Below are positions 5,898 through 40,826 of a stretch of 64,000 nucleotides of DNA, piece by piece (within the stretch, counting starts at the first letter, position 1; each line of letters opens with the position of its first letter). Location: NCBI RefSeq assembly GCF_900141935.1, contig NZ_FQYX01000009.1, forward strand, positions 1-64,000. Reading direction: 5' to 3'. Under the pieces are notes generated by a model that was given only the letters and a program-made list of their open reading frames with translations, ran no database searches and had not been told where the DNA came from. This stretch comes from Arenibacter nanhaiticus. GTDB lineage: Bacteria; Bacteroidota; Bacteroidia; Flavobacteriales; Flavobacteriaceae. Both the position numbers and the translations under genes were made by a program.

Positions 5898-7040
5898 TTA
5901 ATAAGATACGTATTCTGTAATCTCCAAGCCGTATCCTACTAATCCTACTCGTTTGGTCTGTGTAGAATTAGATAATAAGCGGATCTTGGCTATGTCTAGA
6001 TCGTGTAAAATTTGTGCTCCTACGCCAAAATCTTTGGCGTCCATATCTATTTTTGGCGCCTTAAAAATTCCTTTTTTCTGCAATTGTTTCAATTCAGCCA
6101 ACCTTCCCAGTAAATTTAAAGTTTCGGTTTCTTGGTTGATAAAAACAATGGCGCCCTTGCCTTCTTTATTGATAGCATTGAACATATCCTCCAATTTTTT
6201 GTCCGGATTGTTCGTAAGCGTGCCTAAAATATCATTGTTAATTAAGGTCGAATTGATGCGGGTAAGAACTTTTTCGTCTTTTTTCCACGTTCCCTTGGTC
6301 AAGGCTATATGAATTTGGTTATTGGTGGTCTGTTGATAAGCACGCAACCTAAATTCACCAAATCTAGTAACAATATCAAAATCTTCCTTTTTCTGGATAA
6401 GGCTATCGTGTTCCATTCTGTAGGCCACCAACGATTCTATAGAAACTATTTTAAGGTCGAAGGTCTTGGCTACCTTCATCAATTGCGGCAACCTGGCCAT
6501 AGTACCATCATCGTTCATAATCTCTACAATAACCCCAGCAGGCTGAAAGCCAGCTAATCTGGCAAAATCTATCGCAGCTTCGGTATGCCCGGTTCTTCTT
6601 AAAACGCCACCTTCCTTGGCGACAAGCGGAAAAATATGTCCTGGTCTTGCCAAATCGTGAGGCTTGGTGCTTTCATTGGTTAAGGCCAAGATGGTTTTGG
6701 AACGATCCGAAGCAGATATGCCCGTGGTCACCCCATATCCTCTTAAATCAACCGATACGGTAAAGGCGGTCTCCATGGGGTCGGTATTGTTATGAACCAT
6801 CATATGAAGGCCTAACTCCTTGCAGCGCCCTTCCGTAAGGGGAGCGCAAATAAGCCCCTTTCCATGGGTAGCCATAAAATTGATCAATTCTGGAGTAACC
6901 ATTTCTGCTGCAGCTAAAAAATCGCCTTCATTCTCCCTGTTCTCGTCATCTACCACAATAATTACCTTGCCCTGTCTAATATCCTCAATCGCTTCTTCTA
7001 TGGTATTCAGCGCAACAGGCTTATCAATCTTCGTTGTCAT
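5898..7040 (-). CDS. ribB: RibBA-type riboflavin protein; GTP cyclohydrolase II half degenerate
   Basis: 380 aa. The N-terminal half (1-205) is a complete 3,4-dihydroxy-2-butanone 4-phosphate synthase: DDENRENEGDF (31-41) binds metal and ribulose 5-phosphate, and RTGHTEAAID provides the second metal site. The C-terminal half aligns with GTP cyclohydrolase II along its length (VLTRINS, DFGVGAQILHDL, GLVGYGLEI), but where the family has the zinc-binding H-S-E-C and C-D-C-G signature it reads VLTRINSTLINNDILGTLTNN with no cysteine, and the GHEGRGIG catalytic loop is also replaced. It should make DHBP but not hydrolyse GTP. From memory, the same degeneration is common in flavobacteria. It overlaps the LptF/G permease gene by 4 bp. 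Confidence 0.93.
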   Translation of the reverse strand: MTTKIDKPVALNTIEEAIEDIRQGKVIIVVDDENRENEGDFLAAAEMVTPELINFMATHGKGLICAPLTEGRCKELGLHMMVHNNTDPMETAFTVSVDLRGYGVTTGISASDRSKTILALTNESTKPHDLARPGHIFPLVAKEGGVLRRTGHTEAAIDFARLAGFQPAGVIVEIMNDDGTMARLPQLMKVAKTFDLKIVSIESLVAYRMEHDSLIQKKEDFDIVTRFGEFRLRAYQQTTNNQIHIALTKGTWKKDEKVLTRINSTLINNDILGTLTNNPDKKLEDMFNAINKEGKGAIVFINQETETLNLLGRLAELKQLQKKGIFKAPKIDMDAKDFGVGAQILHDLDIAKIRLLSNSTQTKRVGLVGYGLEITEYVSY

Positions 7041-8533
7041 GTCGTAGATATTTTTCTTTTCTTTGTAATTAATTTCTTAATATAATCTATAATGCTCCCT
7101 ATGGAAATTAATCCTTTATCGGCGGTAGCTCTTCTTGTTAAGAATATTCCCAAAGGTAACATAATACAGGTAGAAAGCCATGCTCCTAGAACAGGATCAA
7201 TATTGCCTTCCTTAGCGTAGTTGCCGGCAAAAACACCAATAAAGTAATAGGTAAGGAATAAAACGATGGCAATAACCATAGGCAATCCGAGGCCACCTTT
7301 CCTAATAATAGCACCCAAAGGAGCTCCAACAAAAAACAAAATAATACACGATAAGGCTAAAGCATATTTTTTATGCAAGGACAAAATGTGTAGGTTATAA
7401 ATTTTGTATTTTAATTGAAGTTCTTTTTTCTTTCCCTTTATGGTTGTTAAGATATTCGAAGTAGCTGTTTTTGCCGAACCTATAATCTGTGCGGTTTGCC
7501 ATTCTGGAAATAACGCAACAATACTATCGGTAGGGATTTGGGCAAGATCGGAAAAGCGAGGCCTGGGCTTTTGGGCTCTTTTCTCTTCAATGCGTGCCAT
7601 TGTAATGGAGTCGGGTTTTTCGACCACCATAAAAGCTCCCATTCTATTGACTATATTTTTTGAGAAAGCATTTACGACTTTTATATTGTCCTTCTTAAGC
7701 GAATCTATATCCTTGGATAAACGCGAAATGTTTTTCATTTTATCGGTGCTAACATCGCGTTCCTCGTTCATGTCCACATTATTAAGGTCGGACAAATCTT
7801 TATTAATGGTATAGGTCTTAAAATCGGCCTTGGTAAAGGGGTGTTTATTCTTATTCTTATTGCTTTTAGGTTCCATTTCCTTGTAATAATGGCCATCCTT
7901 TAATACCAATTGTAGGAGGTCCGAGTCCTCGCTACTGATAAGCTCTCCAGATTCGGCTTTTATAACCGTGGTATTGACGTTGGTCCTAGATTTTTGATGG
8001 ATAATGACATTCTCCAAAAACCGATCTTTTTCCCCGTGTTTGCGATCTACCTTCATATTCATGTCGGTACCCTCTAAATCGCTAAAAACACCCTCAGAAA
8101 TAATAGCTGCAGGTTTAACCTTTGCGATATTACGTCTTAGGTTGTAGATTTTCTGTTCGGATAAAGGAATGATGTTATTGGCAAAATAAAAGGTTACTCC
8201 TCCTAAAAAGGTCACAAAAATAATCAAACTCAACATAGATCTCTGCAAGGAAATACCAGAAGCCTTCATTGCGGCAAATTCATAGTTTTCCGCAAAAGAG
8301 CCAAAGGTGAGGATCGATGACAAAAGCACCGTCAAGGGAATTACCCGTTCCATTAAATTTGGCATCAAATAAAACATGAATTTCCCTATAATGAAGATGT
8401 CTAGGCCTTTGCCTGCAAAATCATCAATAAAGAGCCAGATCGTTTGGAATATAAAGATAAACATCAATATAAAAAACGAACTGAAAAAATTGTAAAGGAA
8501 GCTGGATAATATATATCGATCTAATATTCTCAA
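7037..8533 (-). CDS. LptF/LptG family permease (YjgP/YjgQ)
   Basis: 498 aa inner-membrane protein. Two N-terminal helices (about 10-35 and 60-85), a third around 100-125, a large periplasmic domain (about 130-370) and three C-terminal helices give the LptF/G layout. The C-terminal LSLHKKYALALSCIILFFVGAPLG is the family hallmark. LptF and LptG form the permease of the LptB2FG ABC exporter that extracts lipopolysaccharide. Bacteroidota often encode the two at separate loci, so F versus G is not assigned. The downstream overlap with ribBA (4 bp) and lolA just upstream suggest one envelope-related transcript. Confidence 0.9.
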   Translation of the reverse strand: MRILDRYILSSFLYNFFSSFFILMFIFIFQTIWLFIDDFAGKGLDIFIIGKFMFYLMPNLMERVIPLTVLLSSILTFGSFAENYEFAAMKASGISLQRSMLSLIIFVTFLGGVTFYFANNIIPLSEQKIYNLRRNIAKVKPAAIISEGVFSDLEGTDMNMKVDRKHGEKDRFLENVIIHQKSRTNVNTTVIKAESGELISSEDSDLLQLVLKDGHYYKEMEPKSNKNKNKHPFTKADFKTYTINKDLSDLNNVDMNEERDVSTDKMKNISRLSKDIDSLKKDNIKVVNAFSKNIVNRMGAFMVVEKPDSITMARIEEKRAQKPRPRFSDLAQIPTDSIVALFPEWQTAQIIGSAKTATSNILTTIKGKKKELQLKYKIYNLHILSLHKKYALALSCIILFFVGAPLGAIIRKGGLGLPMVIAIVLFLTYYFIGVFAGNYAKEGNIDPVLGAWLSTCIMLPLGIFLTRRATADKGLISIGSIIDYIKKLITKKRKISTT

Positions 8534-28689: not shown

Positions 28690-31098
28690 TTGATTTATGT
28701 GAGAACATTTAAAAAGACATTGCTGATTATCTTAGGGGTAATCGCTGTTTTGGCAATGATTGCCACTATAGTTTTTTATCAGCTTTCTCCTAATTATAAT
28801 GGGGAAAAGACGTTGTCTAAACTGACCGAAGAGGTAAAGGTGTATTACGATGCCTACGGTATTCCTCATATATATGGAGAAAATGAAGCCGATGCTTTTA
28901 GAGCCTTAGGGTATGTGCATGCCCAAGACAGGCTGTGGCAAATGGAACTGTTGCGGCGAATAGGAAGGGGTGGACTTTCTGAAGTCTTTGGTGCAGATTT
29001 GTTAGAAACAGATAAGTTCTTTTTATCGCTAGGAATCAATGAAGCTTCAGAAAACACCGTAAAAAACATAGTGCCAACCGAACCAATGGTGCTATTATCG
29101 CAAGCCTATCTGGATGGTATCAATCAGTTTATTGAGCAGGGGCCAACACCGGTCGAATTTTACCTGACGGGGATAGAAAAAAGACCCTTTACTCTAAAAG
29201 ATGTTTTTAATACGGTGGGGTATATGGCCTTTAGTTTTGCTATGGCCCATAAAACAGACCCCTTGCTGACCAATATAAAAAACAAGTTAGGACCAGACTA
29301 TTTGGTTGATTTAGAAATAGACGTAGATAGCAGTACTGTTTGGATTAAAAACCATAAACAATCTTTTCAGGTAGGTGGTGTTCATGAGGTGATAACGAAA
29401 AAATTAAGCGGTATTTTAAAAAACCTTCCGTTGGCACAATTTGAGGGAAGCAATAGCTGGGTAATAGCGCCTGAAAAGACTAAAAACGGAAAAGTTATTT
29501 TTGCGAACGACCCCCATATTGGTTTTGCTCAGCCCTCGGTTTGGTACGAAGCGCATCTGAGTACCCCGGACTATGAAAAATATGGCTATCATTTGGCAGG
29601 TGTGCCGTTTCCATTATTAGGCCATAATAGAAAGTTGGCATACGGACTAACGATGTTCGAAAACGATGATATAGACTTTTATTACGAAGAAGACTCCCCC
29701 TTAGATCGCAATAGTTATAAAACCACGGGTGGTTATGTACCTTATAAATTGGTGCACAACACTATAAGGGTAAAAGATGAGGAGGCGGTAGCGTTCACCT
29801 ATAAAGAATCTGTACATGGCCCTATAGTTCATGGAATAACGACTGAACTTAGCGACGACAAAAGTATTGCTATGTCATGGGCGTACACCAAGGTAGAAAA
29901 CAAAGTTATGGATGCGCTCTATGGTTTGTCTCATGCCAATAATCTATCAGACTTTGAAAAGGCCCTCCCGGATATTCATGCGCCAGGGTTAAATATAATG
30001 TATGGCGATGCTATTGGGAATGTGGCATGGTTTGCAACGGCAAAATTATACGCCATGCCCGATAGTACTAATACCAAGTTTATTTTAGATGGGAGCAGTG
30101 GTAAGGACGAACCCCTTGGTTATTTGGATTTTTCAGAAAACCCTATGGCTATCAATCCCCCTTGGAACTAAGTGTATTCTGCCAACAATCAGCCCGATTC
30201 AATTGCTGGAATCCTTTATCCTGGATATTACTTGCCCGAAAACAGAGCCAAACGCATTGTATCCTTATTAGAGCCTAAAGACGATTGGGATAAGCAGCAG
30301 GTCTCTGAAATGATTCTAGATGTTACCGCTCCGGTAGATATAGATATTGTAAGCAACTTGGTTAAATTAATGGATATAAAAAACTTGTCGGACCAAGAAA
30401 TTCATATTCTGGATAAGTTAAATTTATGGGATGGGAACAACCAGTTGGAAAATATAGAACCTACGATTTATCACCGATGGTTGTATCAGTTATTAAAATA
30501 TGGTTTTGAAGACGAATTGGGGCCTGAAATGTTTCAAGAATTATTGGCTACCCATATGTTTAAAAGACTAATAGCACCCTTATCCGAAAAGGAAACTTCT
30601 GTTTGGTGGGATAATATTTCAACAAAAGACATTGTCGAAACAAAGCAACTGGCCGTAATCGAGTCCTTTAAACTGGCTGTGGCATCACTGGAGGCCGATT
30701 TTGGAAAAAACAACAAGAAGTGGACGTGGGGGAAAGTACATACCCTAGAGCATGGGCATCCGATAGGGCGCATAAAAGCGCTTAGGTCTTTCTTTAATGT
30801 GGGGCCTTTCCCGGCAGTGGGAACTAGGGAAGTTATCAATAACATGGCTTTTAATTATGATGAAACTGGAAAATATCCCGTTACTTCGGGACCTTCGACC
30901 AGAAGGATTATTGATTTTTCGGATATAGAAAATAGCATCAGTATTCTCCCCACCGGGCAATCGGGCAATCCGTTTAGTCCCCATTATAGGGACCAGGCAA
31001 AAATGTTCAACAAAGGTCATTTTCGTAAAATGATGATGAACAAAGAAGAAATTATTAGGACTAAAAAATCCTTGCTCATATTTAAACCAAAGTCGTAG
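28690..31098 (+). pseudogene. Penicillin acylase family (S45) protein with in-frame stop
   Basis: One Ntn-hydrolase gene of about 802 codons is interrupted by a single TAA at 30169-30171. The frame is otherwise intact on both sides: upstream ends INPPWN, downstream continues VYSANNQPDS, and the usual family sequence at this point is NPPWGYV.SANNQP-like, so a Tyr codon most likely became TAA. The first part (493 aa) holds an N-terminal membrane anchor, the alpha-subunit and the catalytic nucleophile Ser in FEGSNSWVI (near residue 254), followed by NDPHIGF. The second part (about 309 residues) carries the rest of the beta-subunit. There is no ATG at the 5' end; TTG 28690 or GTG 28699 is the start. 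Confidence 0.85.
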
Positions 31099-31226
31099 GA
31101 ACCGGGAAGGCAATTATATGCTGTTCATCTTTTTTCTTACTATTTTGGGCTAATTATATAATATCTAGTCTCTTATATACTAAATGTTTTGTTTTATTTA
31201 ACTACTTTTAGTTAAAAGAGATGTAA

Positions 31227-32660
31227 ATGCTTACAAAAGTTTTCGGAAGTGCTGTGTTCGGAGTTGAAGCCACTACAATTACTGTAGAGGTTAATATCGA
31301 TAAGGGGGTTGGGTATCATTTGGTAGGCTTGCCAGACAATGCTATTAAAGAGAGTAACTACCGTATTGCAGCAGGTTTAAAAAACAATGGCTATAAAGTA
31401 CCTGGAAAGAAAATTACCATAAACATGGCCCCAGCCGATCTGCGAAAGGAAGGGTCGGCCTATGACCTTACCTTAGCCTTGGGGATTCTTACCGCCTCTG
31501 GACAAATTAAGTCCGAGAATCTGGAGCGTTATATTATTATGGGAGAAATGTCCTTGGATGGGAGTATTCAACCTATAAAAGGTGCCTTGCCGATCGCTAT
31601 AAAAGCGAAGGAAGAGGGTTTTATAGGGTTTATTTTACCCATGGAAAATGCCAAGGAAGCCGCTATTGTCGAGGGGTTAAAAGTATATGGTGTGGAGAAT
31701 ATAGGAGAGGTCATTGAATTTTTTGATAGCGGTACGCCCCTAGAAGAAACGGTGATAGATACCCAAGCCGAATTTTATAAGAATTTAGATTTTCCAGAAT
31801 TCGATTTTTCAGACGTAAAAGGACAGGAAAGCATCAAACGGTGTATGGAGATAGCGGCGGCAGGCGGACATAATATTATTCTGATAGGCCCTCCAGGGGC
31901 AGGGAAGACCATGCTGGCGAAGCGACTGCCATCTATTTTACCGCCCATGACCTTGGATGAAGCTTTAGAAACCACTAAAATACACAGTGTAGTAGGGAAA
32001 ATAAAGAATATGGGACTCATGAACCAAAGACCTTTTAGAAGTCCCCACCACACCATTAGCGATGTTGCCTTGGTCGGCGGTGGCGCCTATCCACAGCCTG
32101 GGGAAATTTCCCTATCCCATAATGGAGTATTGTTTTTAGATGAATTGCCCGAATTTAAACGCGGGGTATTAGAAGTGATGCGGCAACCGCTCGAAGATAG
32201 GGAGGTTACTATTTCCAGAGCGCGTTTTACGGTTACCTATCCCAGTAGTTTTATGCTGGTGGCAAGTATGAATCCCAGTCCCGGTGGCTATTTCAACGAT
32301 CCCGATGCCCCGGTGACATCCTCCCCGGCAGAAATGCAACGCTATTTAGGAAAGATTTCGGGTCCCTTATTAGACAGGATCGATATTCATATAGAAGTAA
32401 CCCCAGTGCCTTTTGAAAAGCTTTCTGAAGATAGAAAAGGAGAAAGTAGTGTCGAAATTCGCAAGCGGGTTACCGCTGCCAGGAAATTGCAGACCCAACG
32501 CTTTTTTAAGTCCGAGAATGTGCACTACAACGCACAGATGAATACCAAGCAGATTCGAAAGCACTGCCAAATGGACGAGGCCTCTAAAGAGTTGCTTAAA
32601 AATGCCATGGATCGCCTAAATCTCTCTGCCAGAGCCTACGATCGGATTTTGAAAGACTAA
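31227..32660 (+). pseudogene. comM: YifB/ComM-family Mg-chelatase-like ATPase, 3' end displaced by an inserted element
   Basis: 477 codons of a gene normally about 510 long. The N-terminal Lon-like domain (1-180) and AAA+ domain with Walker A GPPGAGKT (near 221) and LFLDELPEF (Walker B) are intact. The C-terminal domain stops at SARAYDRILKD. The Asp and stop codon come from the inserted element. The natural continuation [11 protein letters not shown]...REGWLG lies at 39403-39513. Joining at the shared AA restores an uninterrupted frame of about 512 codons. In Gram-negatives, ComM is a hexameric helicase that promotes branch migration during natural transformation. The truncated protein lacks 36 C-terminal residues, so function is doubtful. 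Confidence 0.92.
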
Positions 32661-32678
32661 TATTTTTATGTATAACCC
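32652..32678 (+). other. attL of the comM element
   Basis: The left junction has chromosomal comM (codons for ILK) up to the crossover AA, then 25 bp of element arm containing TATTTTTATGTATAAC. The arm mirrors the right end of the element. Confidence 0.8.
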
Positions 32679-32820
32679 ATTAACTAAATAATAATCAGCA
32701 TATTATTATTTATTTCGTTTTTCATCTTAATACTTTTCGACTTAATGAAAAGCTTAAACCGTTTTCATAGAGTTAAAAAAAGACCTCAACAATATATTAA
32801 AATATTTAACGCCTTTTCAT

Positions 32821-32934
32821 AATGTTCACTTTGTACAAAAATGAACATTGTTAGGAAATACAGGGGTTTTTGAATAAAACGTATTAATAATGTTCAGTTT
32901 TGTTTTGTAAACTCATTAATGAACATTATATTTG
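32821..32934 (+). promoter_or_regulatory. Promoter and four half-sites upstream of the tyrosine recombinase
   Basis: AATGTTCA occurs at 32821-32828 and 32889-32896, and its complement TGAACATT at 32842-32849 and 32920-32927, making two dyads. The second dyad overlaps a textbook Bacteroidota promoter: TTTG at 32904-32907, 19 nt, then TATATTTG at 32927-32934. A repressor or the recombinase itself binding here would block transcription (inference). Confidence 0.7.
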
Positions 32935-32957
32935 TATCTCACCAAACAATTATAATC

Positions 32958-33497
32958 ATGACTGGATCAACTTACTTGGATTTCGATAGGACTTTAAACA
33001 AAGCTTTTAAAATGATAAAAGATGATAAAGACAAAAGTTTTGCCCTACTGGTTATATGTGGTATTAATTTAGGTCTTAGGATAGATGACCTTACAAACCT
33101 TACTTTTGAAGATTTGCGAAAAGACACCTTTACTATTACTGAAGGGAAGACGAACAAAACTAGAACCCTTGCAGTAAACGACCACATCAAAACGGCTGTA
33201 TCTTACTTCTCTGAAGATGTAAAAGGGTTTGCATTCATTAGCCAAAAGGGAACTAGGTTTAGCTCTCAGCACCTCAACAGGAAGCTTAAAGAAGCATTTA
33301 AAGGCATTGGGAGCGGTAAGGTAACTACTCATTCATTGCGTAAATGTTTCGGGCGTAGGGTCTTCGAATCCAACGGGGAGAGTGAAAAGAGTTTAGTTTA
33401 TTTGTCGCAGCTTTTCAATCATAGTTCTACTCTTGTCACTAGAACCTATCTAGGGATACAACAAGAGGAATTGAACGACATTTACAATAACCTGTAA
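32958..33497 (+). CDS. Tyrosine recombinase, catalytic domain only
   Basis: 179 aa from ATG 32958 (an ATG at 32919 lies in the promoter/operator and is unlikely). The catalytic residues are recognisable: Arg in GLRIDDLTNL, a Lys in the beta-hairpin TEGKTNKTR, HSLRKCF for the His-x-x-Arg pair, His in LFNHSS, and the nucleophile Tyr in TRTYLGI near the C-terminus. The usual N-terminal SAM-like core-binding domain (about 90-100 residues) is missing; the protein begins almost at the catalytic domain. It may resolve, invert or regulate rather than integrate the element. It is transcribed inward from the left end. Confidence 0.85.
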   Translation: MTGSTYLDFDRTLNKAFKMIKDDKDKSFALLVICGINLGLRIDDLTNLTFEDLRKDTFTITEGKTNKTRTLAVNDHIKTAVSYFSEDVKGFAFISQKGTRFSSQHLNRKLKEAFKGIGSGKVTTHSLRKCFGRRVFESNGESEKSLVYLSQLFNHSSTLVTRTYLGIQQEELNDIYNNL

Positions 33498-33562
33498 GAA
33501 AATCCAAAACGAAATTTTTTACCTCTTTTCATAAAGTTGAGGTTACTATAATCAGCCATAAA

Positions 33563-33614
33563 GCTATTTAAGACGTGTATCAGGCGTTTTAAGGAGCTTT
33601 AACACTAAAGTGAC
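33563..33614 (+). repeat. Island repeat A, copy 1
   Basis: One of three related segments of about 50 bp (also 37422-37470 and 37729-37781) sharing GTTTTAAGGAGCTTTA and a following TAAArGyGATA-like end. A nearby CTTTAAAACGTCTG (about 33643-33656) can pair with the core, so the unit is hairpin-forming. Confidence 0.6.
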
Positions 33615-33746
33615 ATATATCACTATATTTAAATCAAAGAGGCTTTAAAACGTCTGAAATGGGTTGAGGTTTAGATTTTACTTTATGTGAAGTGAATAGG
33701 CAAAACTAAAAAAAAGCCCCTAGAAATTAATCTAAGAGCTTTAAAT

Positions 33747-33926
33747 CTATTTTTTAAACACGATAGCCGTACGAATGTGTTTAATATCCTCGGGTCTTAT
33801 CTCCCTTGTATGGCCTACATCCTCGTAAAGCTTGCCATTTTCTAAATCCCTGAACGCTATAGAGCTGACTCTATGGGATGTTATTTGTTCGATTTCTAGT
33901 TTCTCCCGTAGTTTCCTTACACTCAT
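33747..33926 (-). CDS. Small hypothetical protein (59 aa)
   Basis: 59 aa, charged, beginning MSVRKLREKLEIEQ and ending AIVFKK. It is too short for many gene callers but has an ATGA overlap with the stop of the upstream 113-aa gene, which supports translation. It is the last gene of the element's minus-strand operon. Motifs such as FRDLENGKLYEDVGHTREI do not match a family known to me. Function unknown. Confidence 0.65.
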   Translation of the reverse strand: MSVRKLREKLEIEQITSHRVSSIAFRDLENGKLYEDVGHTREIRPEDIKHIRTAIVFKK

Positions 33927-34264
33927 TTTATGCTGTCCTTTAATCGTTGAACCAGTTCGTCTGTCTCGACCTCATCCATTCCATTTAACAAGGTCTTTAT
34001 ACTTTCCTTTTTCGATAAGACATAGGGCAACAGATCCATATGGAGCTTAAGACGAGCGGTCTTATTCAACTCCATATCTTCCTTATAAAGCCCATGTACG
34101 AAATACCTTTCCAAGGATTCCCCTATAGCCTTTCTGATCAAAACATCTGCGGGCTGTTTGAGGCTTCCCTTAGGCCGTCCCGCTTTCCTTTTCGTTTCTT
34201 TTTCTTCTTTATTTTCTTCCAATTTTTTACAATTTTTTAAATTCCATGAACCCAATGCCATCAA
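33923..34264 (-). CDS. Hypothetical protein with GRPKG motif
   Basis: 113 aa. A Lys/Glu-rich N-terminus leads into KRKAGRPKGSLKQPAD (about 27-42), an AT-hook-like GRPKGS motif. A helical region with ARLKLHMDLLPYVLSKKES follows. This layout resembles small Bacteroidota phage and plasmid proteins annotated as hypothetical or terminase-small-subunit-like, but I cannot assign it. It overlaps the downstream 59-aa gene by 4 bp. It is separated from the upstream 214-aa gene by 144 bp that are very T/A-rich, including a run of T at 34300-34318. Confidence 0.6.
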   Translation of the reverse strand: MMALGSWNLKNCKKLEENKEEKETKRKAGRPKGSLKQPADVLIRKAIGESLERYFVHGLYKEDMELNKTARLKLHMDLLPYVLSKKESIKTLLNGMDEVETDELVQRLKDSIK

Positions 34265-34408
34265 GGGCTTAGGCGCAAAAAGAACACCTATAGAAAAAAT
34301 TTTTTTTTATTTTTTTTGTTGGTGTTTACACATCATTTTAACATATTGACTTTAAAACCTAAAAGATTAATAATCAATATGTTAACTTATATTTTTGTCG
34401 ATTTCCGT

Positions 34409-35053
34409 TTATCTAATCGAGGCGATTCTATTATAGTCCACTTTACCCGTATCCAAATCAATGATTTCAGATAGGTTGATCCCCGTATAATGCTTGGATA
34501 CGATCCCTTGTTTTAAACCCCATTCGATTATAGTAGAAAGTTTTTCAGCTAATTGCTTCAATTCGTTTTGCTTGGTGTTCTTACAAAAGGTTGAATAAAT
34601 TTCCTTTAGTACGGTATCTACTTTGGTATTCATTTTAAACTCTTCATTGAGTACAAAGGATTCTAAGGTCAACCCTTTAATGCTCTCTATCTCCTTGTTA
34701 ATGCCCGTAGCCCTTTGGATTAAATTCTTTACTACTGTTACGTCCTCGGGATTCTTGAACATCTCTATTGCTTTTAGCTTTATAAGGCTGGGGTACAGCT
34801 TTCTAACTCCTTGCACCTCATCCCTGTACTTTATGAGGATTATTTCATTTTGCTTGACCTCATCATTTAAATATAGGTCATTTCCGTACGTTCTAATGAA
34901 CTTAATCACTTTGTCCACGCTATTGGTATCATAGTCTATACCCTTGTCGAGGTCAGTCTTTAAATCGGTTATTTCATTTAGTATATCCTGTACCTTGCTT
35001 TCTAGATTCTGCTTTAATGGTTCGTTAACCATTAGTGTTATTTTCTTTTTCAT
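34409..35053 (-). CDS. Hypothetical helical protein of the element
   Basis: 214 aa, rich in Lys/Glu/Ile and predicted mostly helical with coiled-coil tendency in 10-60 and 100-170. There is no signal peptide, membrane helix or cysteine cluster (one Cys only, near 160). No family recognised. It begins 1 bp after the stop of the 140-aa gene, within a tight operon, so it likely functions with that protein. Confidence 0.6.
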   Translation of the reverse strand: MKKKITLMVNEPLKQNLESKVQDILNEITDLKTDLDKGIDYDTNSVDKVIKFIRTYGNDLYLNDEVKQNEIILIKYRDEVQGVRKLYPSLIKLKAIEMFKNPEDVTVVKNLIQRATGINKEIESIKGLTLESFVLNEEFKMNTKVDTVLKEIYSTFCKNTKQNELKQLAEKLSTIIEWGLKQGIVSKHYTGINLSEIIDLDTGKVDYNRIASIR

Positions 35054-35054
35054 G

Positions 35055-35477
35055 TTATTTTATTTTTATTATTTCTTCCTCATTTTCTTTTAGCTCGCTA
35101 AAAAAATCCTGAATTATCATATTCCCGCCTTTGTCGACGTATAGTGATATATCATCCGTTACTTTAGATTCATTTGCATATCGTCCACTAGATGCGACAT
35201 CTAGCGCAAAGAGGGTATCTGATATCTTACGCCCTCGTTCGTCCGTTACGGTGGCTATCCTTGCGTCATATCTGCCCTTTAATTTGTTGGTAAATTTTGA
35301 TGATAGCTTTACGATATATAAATTGGGGTTGTCTGCGTCCTGTTCAATTACATTACCGTCTTTATTGGCAATCAAACTGTCTCCAATGTAGACGGTGAAG
35401 TCTTGGATTGCTAGGTTTAAAAAGACGCCGAAAGTAAAATAGTCCCCCGATTTGATTTCTGCTTTGATGTTGGTCAT
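35055..35477 (-). CDS. Hypothetical protein, possibly Ig-like fold of phage baseplate type
   Basis: 140 aa, predicted beta-rich. The pattern GDYFTFGVFLNLAIQDFTVYIGD, then IVKLSSKFTNKLKGRYDARIATVTDERG, then TLFALDV resembles the small N-terminal Ig-like domains of phage baseplate or fibre proteins (BppU/DUF2479 style). This is a weak fold-level similarity by eye. It sits 3 bp after the 117-aa gene and 1 bp before the 214-aa gene. If the resemblance is right, the element could be phage-derived. Confidence 0.55.
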   Translation of the reverse strand: MTNIKAEIKSGDYFTFGVFLNLAIQDFTVYIGDSLIANKDGNVIEQDADNPNLYIVKLSSKFTNKLKGRYDARIATVTDERGRKISDTLFALDVASSGRYANESKVTDDISLYVDKGGNMIIQDFFSELKENEEEIIKIK

Positions 35478-35480
35478 ATC

Positions 35481-35834
35481 CTAGGTAGTTATGAGGTTCA
35501 TTCCCTTCAGTTTATCCCAGTTGGGGAAGTAATAAAGTCTTTTTGATTTTCTTGCGCTTGGCTCTACCTCGATATATCTCCCATCGACCTTTATCATAAC
35601 CGTAAATAGGTTCATTTCTTCGAGCTTGTTTCGATGTGTGGTAAAAGTTATTGTGCTGATTCTTAGGTTATTTTGCATTTCGCCGTTCTTGATATAGCTA
35701 AGTTTGTCCTTGTTTTTTTGGTGATTTATTAAAATGTAAATAATCATTAATCGTTGTACGAGACCTAACTCTTTGCTGGTGATTGTTGCTTCTAAATTGA
35801 TTTTAAAATCCTGTTTTGGTGATATTTGTTTCAT
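35481..35834 (-). CDS. Hypothetical protein, winged-helix-like
   Basis: 117 aa. The segment SKELGLVQRLMIIYILINHQKNKDKLSYIKNGEMQNNLRISTITFTTHRNKLEEMNLFTV (about 20-78) has the helix spacing of a winged helix-turn-helix, with a possible recognition helix at NLRISTITFTTHRNKLEE. A DNA-binding or replication-accessory role is inferred. It is the third gene of the element's operon, between a larger HTH-like protein and a beta-rich protein. Confidence 0.55.
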   Translation of the reverse strand: MKQISPKQDFKINLEATITSKELGLVQRLMIIYILINHQKNKDKLSYIKNGEMQNNLRISTITFTTHRNKLEEMNLFTVMIKVDGRYIEVEPSARKSKRLYYFPNWDKLKGMNLITT

Positions 35835-35861
35835 ATTGTTTTGTTGTTTTTAATTGTTAAT

Positions 35862-36767
35862 TTATCTGTCTAGTATAAGTTGCAGCTCTTCTATCAAGGG
35901 ACATGGCGAGGTGTTGCATGATTGTTTCCCCTTCATTGCTAGGTGGTTAATTACAGGGGAGTTGTAGGATTGATATTCCTCCAGTGCTAGGTAGTTAATT
36001 ACATCGGCACTTAGTATCATATCTCTAGTAGGGTTGTAGGTTTCCTTGTCATCCTCTAGGATGGAGTTTTCTGCACCAGTGTACCATGCACCGTCTTCAA
36101 ATAGTTCGTCTTCATCCATTTCATCTTTTGCCTCATCTGTATATAAGTGGTCATAGTTCCCTGCATCGAAATTTATTTTAAAATAATTCCAGTCATAGTC
36201 ATCATCTTCGTACAGCTCCTCTTTGTAGAACTTGTTTTTTAGTTCTCGGTATAGTCTCATACTTATTTTTCCCGTTCGTTTACTACAGGCCTTATAACTA
36301 GGTATTGCGTCGTTGTATGATGACAGTATGATTGCCATCAACCTTTTAATGTATGTCCTATAGTCTTTCTTCAGGCCCTCGAATTGTTTCATACTTATTT
36401 TTAGGTATTTGCCTCCTTCGCTTAGCTTGTATTTGCTTTCGTATCGGGTTTTTTTCGACTGTATGAAATGGTTATCAACAAGAACCTTTATTGATTTGAC
36501 TACTGGTGCTTCGGACATTCCGCAGCTCTTTATTATTTCCTTGATAGGAAGCTTTCTGAAGGTTTTTGTGTCGCAGCTTTTCAAAATAGCCATGTACACC
36601 GCTTTATCTCCAATAGATAAGCTTCCATTTAGTATGATGTCGTGATTAACCTTTTTGTAAAAATCCCCTTCCTTAAAGGTATGTTTGATATATCTCTGTA
36701 AAGCTGGCATTTGTTCGTAGGGCTTTTGTCCTTTCCTTTGGCCATTTTTGCCTTGTTCTTTTTTCAT
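35862..36767 (-). CDS. Helix-turn-helix protein, possible replication or regulatory factor
   Basis: 301 aa. A basic N-terminus (KKEQGKNGQRKGQK) precedes a winged helix: LSIGDKAVYMAILKSCDTKTFRKLPIKEIIKSCGMSEAPVVKSIKVLVDNHFI (about 50-102), the layout of DnaD/RepA-type and MarR-like helix-turn-helix domains. A second helical domain follows (about 125-185), then an acidic linker and a C-terminus rich in NSPVINHLA-type repeats (YNSPVINHLAMKG resembles ADVINYLALEE). The adjacent 22-bp iteron-like repeats make a replication-initiator role possible but unproven. Confidence 0.6.
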   Translation of the reverse strand: MKKEQGKNGQRKGQKPYEQMPALQRYIKHTFKEGDFYKKVNHDIILNGSLSIGDKAVYMAILKSCDTKTFRKLPIKEIIKSCGMSEAPVVKSIKVLVDNHFIQSKKTRYESKYKLSEGGKYLKISMKQFEGLKKDYRTYIKRLMAIILSSYNDAIPSYKACSKRTGKISMRLYRELKNKFYKEELYEDDDYDWNYFKINFDAGNYDHLYTDEAKDEMDEDELFEDGAWYTGAENSILEDDKETYNPTRDMILSADVINYLALEEYQSYNSPVINHLAMKGKQSCNTSPCPLIEELQLILDR

Positions 36768-36773
36768 TTTCTT

Positions 36774-36923
36774 TTATTCCTTAGATTTGATTATCAACTT
36801 GTTTTTTACTAGGATTCGAAATAGCTTTGATTTAATCCCTATCCCTTCGCACGCTTCTTTCATATTGCTGTAGGTCACACCATTATACAGGTAGGTATGA
36901 CCCTCTGTTTTTTTTCTTTCCAT
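36774..36923 (-). CDS. Small hypothetical protein (49 aa), possible HTH
   Basis: 49 aa, first gene of the element's operon, ending 6 bp before the start of the 301-aa gene. The sequence YLYNGVTYSNMKEACEGIGI resembles the short NUMOD/helix-turn-helix-like segment in which a residue pattern 'F...eAa..lgI' selects DNA. Six-base spacing to the next gene supports translation. Function unknown; a small DNA-binding regulator is a guess. Confidence 0.55.
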   Translation of the reverse strand: MERKKTEGHTYLYNGVTYSNMKEACEGIGIKSKLFRILVKNKLIIKSKE

Positions 36924-37145
36924 TTTTTTTAAATGCTTTTTTTTGTTAATATAAAAACCGTTATTTCTTCATTATATATTAAGTTAAAAATATATAGATG
37001 TTATATGTTGATTACCAAGTGTTTACAATTTGATTTTAAAACCAGTTTTTTAAAAAAATCGAGGAGATTTGAAGGGGTGCAATGAAAAACTTAATGAGGA
37101 GTGTTGAGGTGTTTTTCTTTAGGATTTATCGAAAAATAGAGTGTA

Positions 37146-37206
37146 TCAAAACAATAGTCTGTATGTTCCAAAACAATAGTCCGTATGTTCCAAAACAATA
37201 GTTTCC
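37146..37206 (+). repeat. 22-bp iteron-like direct repeats
   Basis: Two and three-quarter tandem units of CCAAAACAATAGTCyGTATGTT at 37146-37167, 37168-37189 and 37190-37206 (partial). Spacing of 22 bp is typical of Rep-binding iterons at plasmid origins. They lie about 220 bp upstream of the operon containing the 301-aa HTH protein. Confidence 0.75.
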
Positions 37207-37421
37207 TTTATATTACTTTTCTATAAGAATTAAATATAATAATTGGAAGGATTCCAACTATTGATTTTTTTTTGAGGTTTTTAACTTTATGGGAAGGAGG
37301 TTATTTTCATAGAGTTAAAAAAAGGAATTTAAAATGCGCATTAAAAAAGAACCTCAACAAAATACCAACCTCTCATAAAGTAGATAGGAAAATACATGAC
37401 CGCAAAACCCCTTGTATCTCA

Positions 37422-37470
37422 TTTTAGGTATCCAACAGACGTTTTAAGGAGCTTTAATGTAAAAGCGATA
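37422..37470 (+). repeat. Island repeat A, copy 2
   Basis: Shares GACGTTTTAAGGAGCTTTAA and TAAAAGCGATA with copies at 33563 and 37729. It is followed by GAGGTTATTAAAACCTCTT, a potential stem. Confidence 0.6.
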
Positions 37471-37523
37471 TGTTTGTATAGATGAGGTTATTAAAACCTC
37501 TTAAAAGAGCTAATTACGATTAT

Positions 37524-37565
37524 AGGGTAAATACCCTGTATTTTATATTGTTACATTTGTAACAA
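37524..37565. promoter_or_regulatory. Two adjacent perfect dyads
   Basis: AGGGTA-aa-TACCCT (37524-37537) is followed 10 bp later by TTGTTAC-attt-GTAACAA (37548-37565). Two close perfect dyads in a control region suggest repressor operators. Confidence 0.55.
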
Positions 37566-37728
37566 TTTGTTAAATACTTAACTTAATATGTTGAATAAAA
37601 ATAAAAAAATAATAAATAAAAAAACCTCATCCAAATAGTTGAGGTTAAAGCGTTTCTTTTTAACTCTATGGAAAAACACAATACATCTCCCATAGAGTTA
37701 AAAAGAAACTTCAATACAAACCTAACAA

Positions 37729-37781
37729 GCTGTTTAAGGTGTGTATTAGGCGTTTTAAGGTGCTTTAGTTTAAAAGTGATA
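37729..37781 (+). repeat. Island repeat A, copy 3
   Basis: Shares GTGTATTAGGCGTTTTAAGG and TAAAAGTGATA with copy 1. It lies 50 bp downstream of the serine-recombinase stop codon, so it could also act as part of that gene's 3' end. Confidence 0.6.
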
Positions 37782-37830
37782 GTAAGTACTGCATTGAAAT
37801 ATGCAAAGCTTTAAAAGCTCTTAATATTAC

Positions 37831-39339
37831 TTACTTGCTTTTCTCCTTTAAATAGTCATCTACCATCATATCGATATCATCATCTTCAATGGGAAACCTT
37901 AGGGGTAGTTCTTCATTTTTATATCTTTCGCTCTCGGGCTTTTTAGATTCCCACCCCAATTTACTTGGGTTTGGCTTTTCAAGGTCATAGCTCCACCGCC
38001 CAAAAACATTGATAATAACGCTATTTTTATCAACCTCAACGTAATTAACAACGTCTTTTATTTCGATTTTAAATTCTTCTAGGTCGTCGCTAAAGTGTTT
38101 TATTTCGGATTTTCTGTCATTTCTTAAGAGCTCTATATACTCCTTAAGCTTGGAATTGTCCGCCTTTATTATTTGATATCTTCCCTCTATTTCGCTTCTC
38201 TTGGTCTCCCATTCCTCTTTTGAAAAATCACCGTCCATATACAAATCCATAGCTTTAGATTTCCTTTCGGTGAGTTTTTTTTCTTCTCTGTTGTTTAGTT
38301 GGATTTGAGCTTCAAGGGATGTTATTTGAAGGTCTATATCCTTTTTATATTGTTCGTCTTTTTGCTTCTTTGCGTGCCTTTCAACTACTTTTTTTACCAT
38401 CCGAAATAACCAAGGTCGATTGATAGAGTTTTTGCATTTCGGGTCTTTGCAGATATAAAGATTCAGCCTACCGCTTTCAATAACTCTTTGATACATAGGG
38501 TTTCCGCAGTGGCATTTTATCCTTCCTTCTACTACATTGGTATGTACTTTGGTTTTAGTACCGAATTTACTTCTACTATTCATCGAGTCATTAGCTTTCT
38601 GCCATAGCTCTTTCGATACAATTGGTTCAACTTCTAGTGTTAAATCCATATACACCCTTTCGCCTTTATGAAATGGATTTCGTATGATTCCCCCCAATGT
38701 TGACATGTGAAGTTTGCGGTCAAACTCGGTCTCTATCATAGCCGATATACTCCGCATTCCTAGGCCACTGGCACATAATTCAAAAATCTTTTTGATGATA
38801 GGTGCTTCATCGTTATCAATTATCGGTGTACCGTCTTTACCTTTCTTGAACCCTATTATTTTTCCCCCGAATGCTTTATTTTTTTTTGCACTAGATAATT
38901 TACCCGACTTAATCCTAGAGGACAATAGACGACTTTCATTTGCAACCATTATCCCAAACAAACTGATAAGCATTTCCGAAGCTATAGACCTGCTTCCGTT
39001 GGGTTCAAGTGTAGAGATGCCCAAGTCCTTAAAGTGGATACAGATACCTTGTTCCGCATACTTTTCGACCACATTTAAAATATCTCGGTTTTTCCTTCCA
39101 AGCCTTGATATTTCGAGAACCAATATATCTGTTATATCCTTATTGTCCTCTAGGTACTTCTCTAGCTGGATAAACCCTTCCCTTTGTTCTGCATCTGTCT
39201 TTGAACCACTTACGGTATCTTCAAAGACTCTAACCAGTTTCAGATTTTTTGATGTGGCAAATTCCGCAATATCTTCCCTTTGTCTTTGTAGGTTTTGCTC
39301 CTCACTAGAAACCCGTAAATAGGCTACCGCTTTCCTCAT
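37831..39339 (-). CDS. Large serine recombinase (integrase)
   Basis: 502 aa. The resolvase catalytic domain (1-145) has AYLRVSSEEQN with nucleophile Ser at 11, plus EISRLGRKNRDIL with the catalytic arginine. The recombinase domain (about 155-260) is followed by a zinc ribbon (GRIKCHCGNP with YICKDPKCKN, four Cys) and a long coiled-coil insertion (about 325-400), the canonical large-serine-integrase order. Its start lies 63 bp from the right end of the element, the usual integrase-next-to-att arrangement. The reconstructed att sites (AA core, symmetric arms) fit this enzyme rather than the tyrosine recombinase. Confidence 0.94.
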   Translation of the reverse strand: MRKAVAYLRVSSEEQNLQRQREDIAEFATSKNLKLVRVFEDTVSGSKTDAEQREGFIQLEKYLEDNKDITDILVLEISRLGRKNRDILNVVEKYAEQGICIHFKDLGISTLEPNGSRSIASEMLISLFGIMVANESRLLSSRIKSGKLSSAKKNKAFGGKIIGFKKGKDGTPIIDNDEAPIIKKIFELCASGLGMRSISAMIETEFDRKLHMSTLGGIIRNPFHKGERVYMDLTLEVEPIVSKELWQKANDSMNSRSKFGTKTKVHTNVVEGRIKCHCGNPMYQRVIESGRLNLYICKDPKCKNSINRPWLFRMVKKVVERHAKKQKDEQYKKDIDLQITSLEAQIQLNNREEKKLTERKSKAMDLYMDGDFSKEEWETKRSEIEGRYQIIKADNSKLKEYIELLRNDRKSEIKHFSDDLEEFKIEIKDVVNYVEVDKNSVIINVFGRWSYDLEKPNPSKLGWESKKPESERYKNEELPLRFPIEDDDIDMMVDDYLKEKSK

Positions 39340-39377
39340 AACGTTGTGATTTAAACGATAAAGATAGTTTTAAAAAT

Positions 39378-39405
39378 GAATTATACATAAAAAAGTATAA
39401 CTAAG
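39378..39405 (-). other. attR of the comM element
   Basis: The 25 bp at 39378-39402 are an inverted imperfect copy of the arm at the left end (17 of 25). They are followed by the crossover AA at 39403-39404 and then comM sequence (GGTAGCTAGAACC). Confidence 0.8.
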
Positions 39406-39513
39406 GTAGCTAGAACCATTGCCGATCTAGAAAACGCCCCCGAGGTCAAAGGCAACCATATTGGAGAAGCTATTCAATACAGAAGTTTAGACCGAGAAGG
39501 CTGGTTAGGGTAG
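39403..39513 (+). pseudogene. Displaced 3' end of comM
   Basis: 37 codons including the stop, reading [15 protein letters not shown], then [18 protein letters not shown] and ending LG. This is the conserved C-terminus of YifB/ComM proteins and the exact continuation of the gene truncated at 32654. It is separated from its promoter and body by about 6.75 kb and cannot be translated properly here. Confidence 0.93.
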
Positions 39514-39554
39514 GGGAAATCAGCTTAAATCAGTTCCCGACGATCTATGAAAAA

Positions 39555-39583
39555 GGGGTCGGACTTAAAAAAAGTCCAACCCC
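39555..39583 (+). terminator. Probable native comM terminator
   Basis: GGGGT-c-GGACTT pairs with AAGTCC-a-ACCCC across one mismatch, 41 bp after the displaced comM stop. The following T-rich run is short. Confidence 0.7.
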
Positions 39584-39638
39584 AGTTATTTTACACTTAG
39601 ACGCTGAAACGTATAGTATCCTTTTTTTAAGTGCTCTT

Positions 39639-40301
39639 TTATGTTATATTTTGTCTTACCTCTTGTAGTCTATGATTAAAATCATAACAAAGTGCGTTAT
39701 ATAAAAAATCTGACATAAAATTACACAACATTTCTATAGCACCTTTCGGAGCATCTTTAGGATGGGCTGTTAAAAGGCCATGCGCAAAGCAATTTCTTAG
39801 CATGGCGCTTACATACAATCCTTTTCTAGCACCTTCTCCTTTTCTAAATTCTTTTAGACTTCTACGTTGGGCAAAAGAATTACAGTTTTCTAATAAAAAA
39901 TTAAATATAGCGTCATTGGTGTCAACAATATCAAAAGCATCTTTTATTTGTTTAAACATGGAAGCTGGCACTTTCTGTAATGCCAAATGGTACATGCCTC
40001 CTTCAATTCCCTCACAATCCGTCACATAGCGCTCAAAAGCACTAAACATTAAAAAATGTCTGTTTAGCGCTTCATATCCTTTTGAAGTGCCTTCTCCAAA
40101 ATCATTAAATGTTATTGATTCTATGGACTTTGCAACACGTAATCTACGGGCAAATCCATTAAAACTAGCACGGGATCCAGAAACATAATCAAAATCTTCC
40201 ATGGAAGCTTTATCTACTCCCGCTCTGGTCAAATATCTAAATTCACTAAAACCGGGGAGAACAGATTCCTCATATAGTATTGCAGTTTTTTCTAGGGTCA
40301 T
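39639..40301 (-). CDS. HEPN-motif protein
   Basis: 220 aa, all-helical by sequence, with no signal peptide. Residues 169-174, RNCFAH, match the HEPN RNase signature R-x4-H, in the expected context of a C-terminal helix (GLYVSAMLRNCFAHGLL). Many HEPN proteins are RNases of toxin-antitoxin, abortive-infection or CRISPR-type systems. No antitoxin or MNT partner is adjacent. It sits between two comM 3' ends, probably as cargo of an older integrated element. A role in phage or element defence is inferred only from the motif and place. Confidence 0.65.
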   Translation of the reverse strand: MTLEKTAILYEESVLPGFSEFRYLTRAGVDKASMEDFDYVSGSRASFNGFARRLRVAKSIESITFNDFGEGTSKGYEALNRHFLMFSAFERYVTDCEGIEGGMYHLALQKVPASMFKQIKDAFDIVDTNDAIFNFLLENCNSFAQRRSLKEFRKGEGARKGLYVSAMLRNCFAHGLLTAHPKDAPKGAIEMLCNFMSDFLYNALCYDFNHRLQEVRQNIT

Positions 40302-40560
40302 TATGTTAAAATATTGAATTGCACGATTTAAACCATAAAATTAACAGACTGGGGTAGATTTATAGTCAGTATTTTACAACAATCGCTCATGATTTTTTTG
40401 TTCCTTTATTCCAAATATAGCAACTATTTAAGGTGTAAATTAAAAAAATGTAGGAAATTACCTTTATTATTAATTTGAAGTTGTTTGCATTTTAGAGAGT
40501 CATAGATATTACCTTTTTGACCGCGGTACCTATTCGAATCTAAATGGAATTTGCCTATCC

Positions 40561-40826
40561 CCATATTCATATAGAAGTAACCTTGGTGCCCTTTGAAAAA
40601 CTATCTTAGGATAAAAAAGGAGAAAGCAGTGTAGAAATTCTCAAACGGGTTACCGCGGCCACGGATTTACAGACCTATCGTTTTTTGAGCCTTAGAACGT
40701 ACACTACAACGCACATATGAATACCAAGCAAATTGGGAAGCACTTGAGAACCATCGCCGATCGAGACAATGTACCTGATTTCAATATTAATACAGAAGCG
40801 TGGAGCGAGAAGGTTGGTTGAGGTAG
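40561..40826 (+). pseudogene. Decayed second copy of the comM 3' region
   Basis: The segment aligns with comM from 32383 (ATTCATATAGAAGTAACC) through ATGAATACCAAGCA, then skips about 95 bp and rejoins at AGAACCATCGCCGATC, ending with sequence like the true comM end (GAGAAGG-TTGGTTG-GGTAG). In-frame stops (for example TATCTTAGG) and indels show that it is dead. The skipped part includes the serine-integrase target. It is best explained as the original comM tail displaced by an earlier integration that supplied a new one. Confidence 0.82.

Follow-up and report, generated by a model that had tools for sequence, protein, structure and literature searches.

In the first 64,000 nucleotides of contig NZ_FQYX01000009.1 of the flavobacterium Arenibacter nanhaiticus (RefSeq assembly GCF_900141935.1; this whole stretch is the window), the transformation gene comM/yifB is broken by a 6,751-bp insert that cuts it at codon 476. 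Comparison of the empty site, the junctions, a conserved core, the symmetry of the rebuilt attP and a target common to six elements make it probable that this integrative element entered comM when its own large serine recombinase (LSR, integrase) carried out a single attP x attB crossover at the AA of codon 476. Relatives at the same point that carry a gene close to a phage particle protein suggest that elements of this family may live as phage parasites; of the life styles considered, a phage satellite is in our view the likeliest, its odds falling slightly short of even (about 45%).

The interrupted comM gene

The 5′ part of comM (31227-32660, plus strand) is a 477-codon open reading frame (ORF) that ends in SARAYDRILKD and a stop. 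It matches the Pfam families Mg_chelatase, ChlI and Mg_chelatase_C, the last of which reaches only profile position 68 of 94. The 3′ end (39403-39513, plus strand) is intact, comprises codons 476-511 and the stop, and closes with REGWLG. The initial annotation had proposed that an element of about 6.75 kb splits the gene and that the missing continuation starts at 39403, and both proposals were borne out: joining the two parts at their common AA (32652-32653 and 39403-39404) rebuilds a frame of 511 residues free of stops. Its count of 36 missing residues was right as to the truncation and off by one as to its size, the loss being 35 residues (477-511), with K476 restored by the left side. When aligned with the intact ComM of the nearest relative by comM (Arenibacter genome G210, 511 codons), as had been advised, the joined protein is 97% identical over 511 of 511 residues. 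Since 33 of the 36 residues of the tail equal those of G210, the tail match is not due to chance. Both flanks are collinear with G210, at 89.7% DNA identity on the left (30902-32655) and 89.2% on the right (39403-40493), and the G+C content is 34.5% in the insert versus 44.7% in comM.

Among the 18 genomes of the genus set, three are occupied: that of the window, A. hampyeongensis JCM 17788 (G203) and A. troitsensis DSM 19835 (G223), each with comM cut at the same residue and a related LSR beside the tail. A search of the other genomes for the empty site found codon 476 uninterrupted in all 15, and collinear in G210; two of these show a partial comM, one at a contig edge (G208) and one without the first 271 residues (G204). 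Close relatives with a short comM and no tail were not seen, nor was an assembly break at either junction, the window lying within a 136-kb contig and A. troitsensis having the same architecture on one contig. Because the junction is identical in genomes that were assembled separately, an assembly artefact is rejected.

Across the 22 loci shown, intact comM genes from the genus and from other families of the order strongly conserve the 35 lost residues. In solved ComM structures (8rxd and others), the terminal stretch is where most of these residues align. The truncated ComM is therefore probably inactive.

Other irregularities of comM were noticed in the genus. The truncated comM of G204 (locus L033, ~6866-7585) has an HNH-nuclease-like ORF, identified by eye, directly upstream; because it adds to the three occupied genomes, comM is broken in at least four of 18. 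About 1 kb downstream of the real tail, the window holds a decayed and incomplete copy of the comM 3′ half (40563-40826), which fuses residues ~387-440 to a portion of the tail and carries a stop as well as a deletion; it predates the element, since its end part is also found in G210. In G223 (as a 169-bp tandem repeat), G202 and G222, the comM tail recurs downstream of the gene. Between the window's comM tail and the decayed copy, in a stretch common with G210, a 220-aa (amino acid) protein is encoded (39639-40301), for which no match was obtained in Pfam or NCBIfam.

Related elements and a shared crossover site

Six elements whose LSRs are related (58-79% identity among them) lie directly against this comM 3′ end. 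Three are in Arenibacter, one each in Flavobacterium and Gaetbulibacter and one in an unclassified flavobacterium. An LSR-alignment scan of 84,980 species genomes, limited by two peptide patterns, reduced 163 pattern matches to five confirmed loci, namely the two further Arenibacter elements and those of Flavobacterium ustbae, Gaetbulibacter sp. S0825 and Flavobacteriaceae bacterium PS02337, in each of which the comM 3′ end lies near the LSR start. In F. ustbae and Gaetbulibacter the 5′ part of comM stops at residue 476 on the other side. The PS02337 sequence covers the right end only and the A. hampyeongensis element is incomplete; the four elements with both ends on one contig measure 6.75, 10.8, 12.4 and 12.8 kb.

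Searches in evenly drawn genome samples, which missed the known relatives, returned little. The LSR profile found no match at E ≤ 1e-90 in 394 genomes of the order besides the window's own, and the LSR a single one at 1e-30 in 198 genomes of the family, likewise besides its own (37% identity, genome G102, with comM intact on another contig). The 97-aa form of one core protein described below has no relative in 396 family genomes apart from that of the window.

The window LSR (502 aa, 37831-39339, minus strand) lies at the right end of the element and reads inward. It matches Pfam Resolvase (8.3e-27) and Recombinase (1.5e-9) as well as PHROG 95, integrase (9.5e-64), and its YLRVS motif and Cys cluster are intact, the resolvase, recombinase and zinc-ribbon parts all being present; a weak NCBIfam match to an IS607 serine recombinase (3.1e-7) comes via the common resolvase domain. 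YLRVS is present in all six LSRs and the Cys cluster pattern in five, the Gaetbulibacter cluster being spelt differently and hence missed by the pattern. From the LSR start to the right core there are 63 bases in the window and fewer than 100 in four other elements; in Gaetbulibacter the LSR sits ~0.7 kb from the att site, with a 211-aa ORF between.

At the left junction, attL (32627-32690) joins the comM half (B), the core AA and the element half (P′); at the right one, attR (39365-39430) joins the element half (P), the core AA and the comM half (B′). The two arms of the attP inverted repeat, at 32663-32681 and 39375-39393, are 19 nt long and 89% complementary. All five elements with both ends available have the AA of codon 476 as their two-base core and no long repeat, and in each the rebuilt attP is an inverted repeat around this AA. 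Half-site identity out of 30 positions is 20 in the window, 20 in A. troitsensis, 17 in A. hampyeongensis, 20 in Gaetbulibacter and 23 in F. ustbae, with p from 0.00005 to 0.0016 by shuffles of one arm, uncorrected for register choice. A one-base shift of the register lowers the identity to 4/30 in A. troitsensis and 6/30 in A. hampyeongensis, the two cases tried. The arms differ among elements and agree within each, at a constant position. Inverted half-sites around a core are the known form of LSR attP sites, and the integration mechanism is therefore well supported.

Gene content and putative replication module

The window element encodes nine proteins, eight of which were scanned with Pfam and PHROG (the 49-aa one was left out) and seven with NCBIfam. 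Leftward from the LSR, on the minus strand, non-coding repeats are followed by genes for proteins of 49, 301, 117, 140, 214, 113 and 59 aa. The families of the 59-aa (33747-33926), 97/113-aa (33923-34264), 214-aa (34409-35053) and 49-aa (36774-36923) proteins, together with the LSR, are common to the elements of the window, A. troitsensis, A. hampyeongensis and Gaetbulibacter, and the Arenibacter and Gaetbulibacter elements keep this core in the same order with open frames. The 214-aa protein occurs in three of the 18 genus genomes, all three bearing the comM element. F. ustbae and PS02337 (the latter incomplete) do not have that core; besides the LSR, they have in common a small serine recombinase and two further families.

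The 301-aa protein (35862-36767, minus strand) is a putative O-like replication initiator. The window copy itself gives only weak matches in Pfam, PHROG and NCBIfam (HTH_45, 0.0013, below the cut-off). It is 32% identical to a 197-aa protein of the Gaetbulibacter element whose PHROG matches are 'replication initiation O-like' (PHROG 678, 2.3e-5) and PHROG 270 (2.2e-4). Iteron-like direct repeats of 22 bp lie upstream of the gene at 37127-37202, and the Gaetbulibacter element also has a repeat array upstream of its homologue; from these features we infer a putative initiator and origin.

At the left end, a short tyrosine recombinase (192 aa, 32919-33497, plus strand) consists of the catalytic domain only, with matches to Pfam Phage_integrase (6.3e-15) and PHROG 216 (1.6e-32); its best NCBIfam matches, XerA/XerC, are far under the cut-offs. 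Five relatives have a small serine recombinase of ~200 aa in its place. No transposase family was recognised in the proteins scanned with Pfam and PHROG.

Putative initiator, iterons and small recombinase together form a plasmid-like module, as would be expected of an integrative and mobilizable element that excises, replicates and moves by conjugation on the machinery of another element. Such a life style appears improbable to us: none of the scanned proteins matched a relaxase, the initiator has no match at E ≤ 0.01 in 72,556 plasmid records, and the genes that relatives share with phages would be left unexplained.

Two remaining proteins vary among the elements. The 117-aa protein (35481-35834, minus strand) is related to a longer one, of 201-207 aa, in the other two Arenibacter elements. 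The 140-aa protein (35055-35477, minus strand) is found only in the window's element among the six, with no convincing match, and none at E ≤ 1 in phage records. Its candidacy, raised by eye, as the N-terminal domain of the phage protein after the virion gene was rejected (hhalign probability 0.2, equal to that of the reversed sequence). Dispersed non-coding repeats of 71-88% identity occur in the element at 32766, 33561, 37308, 37422, 37652-37709 and 37727, and one perfect 20-bp inverted repeat is among them; Rfam gave no match.

Links to Cbastvirus phages

Two proteins of the larger Arenibacter elements (A. troitsensis and A. hampyeongensis) are shared, wholly or in part, with phiST, phi13:1 and Larrie, Cbastvirus phages that are tailed and 77-79 kb in size. 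The first has 189 aa, and its match to PHROG 19979 (virion structural) covers almost all of it (2.4e-105 and 3.2e-103 for the two copies). The copies are 79% and 78% identical to the protein of Cellulophaga phages phiST and phi13:1 and ~60% to that of Tenacibaculum phage Larrie, and the phi13:1 record annotates this structural protein from tandem mass spectrometry proteomics. In the phages the gene comes after that of a ~330-aa structural protein, likely the major capsid protein by gene order. The virion family occurs in two of the 18 genus genomes, both times inside the comM element, and in none of 14 control genomes. In IMG/VR it found no relative as a single query and eight as an alignment, one of them on a 7.1-kb contig that is a piece of a tailed phage. 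The 133-aa protein encoded next to the virion gene has no phage match.

The second is the 201-207-aa protein. Its C-terminal ~70 residues recur in a phage protein whose gene is close to that of the primase/helicase (profile E of 4.1e-9 for Larrie, 1.1e-5 for phiST and 1.2e-5 for phi13:1). The sole PHROG match of the 207-aa form at E ≤ 0.1 has an E of 0.0027. Residues 64-157 of the phage replication protein match a replication initiation profile (3e-18), and the A. hampyeongensis element protein weakly matches 'DnaD-like helicase loader' (0.0018).

Beyond these two, seven of nine element families searched as profiles gave no match in the genomes of phiST, Larrie and phi13:1 at E ≤ 0.5. The RNase H-like protein of F. 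ustbae matches the phage genomes (4e-18); RNase H-like proteins are common. Two kinds of hit were disregarded, namely antisense shadows of the virion gene and an F. ustbae ORF of 50 aa (E 0.0015). The window LSR has no match at E ≤ 1e-20 in 50,697 phage records.

One virion gene and phage-type replication genes could also be the residue of a small temperate phage, and 50.7% of LSR-carrying elements have been predicted to be prophages (PMC10083194). Decay of this kind is nonetheless very improbable here, given the conserved order and open frames of the Arenibacter and Gaetbulibacter core. No portal, terminase or major capsid match was obtained in the scanned proteins (eight of nine in the window, a part of those in the relatives), nor a tail-gene match in those of the window, and none related to those of phiST, Larrie and phi13:1 in the available sequence of the six elements (213 ORFs of at least 45 aa). 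No integrase is annotated in these three phages, and Larrie is reported, in the part of its description used here, to be without integration genes (PMC10013915).

Defence-like cargo and a possible satellite life style

The cargo of the relatives varies by element and looks defensive: ABC-3C CTD10 and DUF2326/PDC-M68B in A. troitsensis (locus L035, 7253-9731), Abi_C in A. hampyeongensis (L029, 7010-7843) and an OLD-like nuclease in Gaetbulibacter (L048, 17903-19903). PADLOC, run on ten proteins of the relatives, gave hits for two. In the PS02337 element (L047, 11657-13722) a DprA-family gene (Pfam DNA_processg_A, 2.1e-54) stands beside a weak phosphoribosyltransferase match; this DprA-family gene thus lies in an element that itself occupies a transformation gene.

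Such cargo, and a virion gene unseen in four of the six elements (PS02337 being incomplete), would suit a defence island moved by the LSR, with anti-phage genes as its load and the captured virion gene as a decoy or sensor without packaging. We hold this to be rather unlikely, since a silent island has no need of the putative initiator and iterons. The virion gene, moreover, is full length and uninterrupted in two diverged elements, and no defence-like gene was recognised in the window element by Pfam, PHROG or NCBIfam, PADLOC not having been run on it.

A phage satellite accounts better for the small size, the LSR and the putative initiator and iterons than do a prophage remnant, an integrative and mobilizable element or a plain defence island. 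It is also favoured because no virion gene set was recognised while one virion gene and part of a replication gene are related to those of a single phage genus, and because the defence-like cargo of the relatives is exchangeable. Two of the six elements supply the case; extended to the window element, which lacks the virion gene, it would follow from kinship.

Several observations weigh against a satellite. The virion gene is present in two of the six elements (PS02337 partial), and the window element has neither it nor the phage-shared C-terminal part, which is absent from its 117-aa protein. Similarity to the phage replication protein spans just ~70 residues, and the A. troitsensis protein has no match to the replication initiation profile at E ≤ 0.1. 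No other structural or packaging gene was recognised; a packaging signal was not searched for. Two core proteins have no relative in IMG/VR, where the LSR has six matches at only 24-27% identity. Fold predictions gave a low mean predicted local distance difference test score (pLDDT) of 34.7 for the virion protein (single sequence) and 38.0 for the 301-aa putative initiator (two rows), the latter with just a winged-helix-like stretch at middling confidence.

The history of the virion gene bears on the same question. The two element copies are 76% identical to each other and a little more similar, at 78-79%, to phiST; a tree of 12 rows does not tell one capture from two: the drawn tree has two changes, well-supported branches force only one, and seven of the nine inner branches are open. 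Between the two copies dN is 0.17 and dS is saturated; the selection behind this low ratio may have acted in the elements or, if the two copies were captured separately, in the phages.

The cycle of the element might run as follows. With a directionality factor, the element would excise as a circle and comM would be restored; the circle would replicate from the iteron origin with the O-like initiator, and the small second recombinase would keep it monomeric. As phage satellites, the two larger Arenibacter elements would exploit Cbastvirus-like siphophages, their own copy of the virion protein altering or sharing the phage particle and the protein with the C-terminal part of the phage replication protein redirecting or jamming phage replication. 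The smaller window element has the integration, putative replication and core genes and not the virion gene or the phage-shared part. While integrated, it leaves ComM without its 35 conserved C-terminal residues. More tentatively, these features could define a new flavobacterial satellite lineage, comM-integrated and LSR-driven, with its own copy of a virion protein, an altered phage replication protein and swappable anti-phage cargo, in which comM would be off during residence and restored on phage-triggered excision; this fuller picture is possible and still doubtful.

Relation to known systems

Among known satellites the nearest in description is PLE, the LSR-carrying satellite of Vibrio phage ICP1, a small island with an LSR integrase, a replication module and a phage helper. 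The elements described here resemble it in the small island, the LSR and the putative replication module, and differ in host phylum, target site and proposed helper. AbaR islands of Acinetobacter are likewise mobile islands that interrupt comM; they are transposon-type resistance islands, with transposase genes in their backbone, whereas here a serine recombinase integrates at the 3′ end. In Acinetobacter, AbaR curing and comM repair raised transformation (PMC7508600).

For LSRs, comM is a known hot spot: the magnesium chelatase/ATP-dependent protease gene receives 12.4% of predicted site-specific LSRs (Durrant et al. 2022, PMC10083194), and in the Wolbachia prophage sr1WO a serine recombinase inserts in a magnesium chelatase gene, with gene portions on both sides (PMC9203015). 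We take the gene of Durrant et al. to be comM/yifB, although their main text has neither name. With the names so equated, their elements agree with ours in the LSR, the target gene and the attP/attB crossover, and differ in being a class reported in bulk, this family, codon and gene content being unnamed in the section covered. sr1WO agrees in its recombinase and target and differs as a Wolbachia prophage from small elements with no recognised virion set. The initial annotation had further suggested an independent exploitation of comM. A mobile element, a target in the last codons and a route other than that of AbaR (a serine recombinase, a 2-bp core and no transposase match) do stand; the novelty does not, LSRs entering this gene being already in print in both of these sources.

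The target is thus not new. What looks new is the type of element, 6.7-12.8 kb long, with no recognised virion gene set, a putative phage-type initiator and iterons, defence-like cargo in relatives and a virion-protein homologue in two. No description of such elements was found in the open-licence literature on phage satellites in Bacteroidota or flavobacteria, including the parts of PMC12324425 and PMC8682789 consulted, and nothing of this kind in that literature on Arenibacter islands.

Implications

If only the integration part holds, the elements are a clean new family for a known hot spot, and their matched attB/attP pairs may serve as integration tools in flavobacteria. Related elements occupy the same codon in three named genera, and because diverged elements in several genera hit this one codon, they offer an uncomplicated case in which to ask what draws serine recombinases so frequently to a transformation gene, a question that is still open. 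If the satellite reading is true, these elements would provide Bacteroidota with a lineage of satellites linked to phages in culture and to two publicly deposited strains, A. troitsensis DSM 19835 and A. hampyeongensis JCM 17788, so that the reading could be tested at once.

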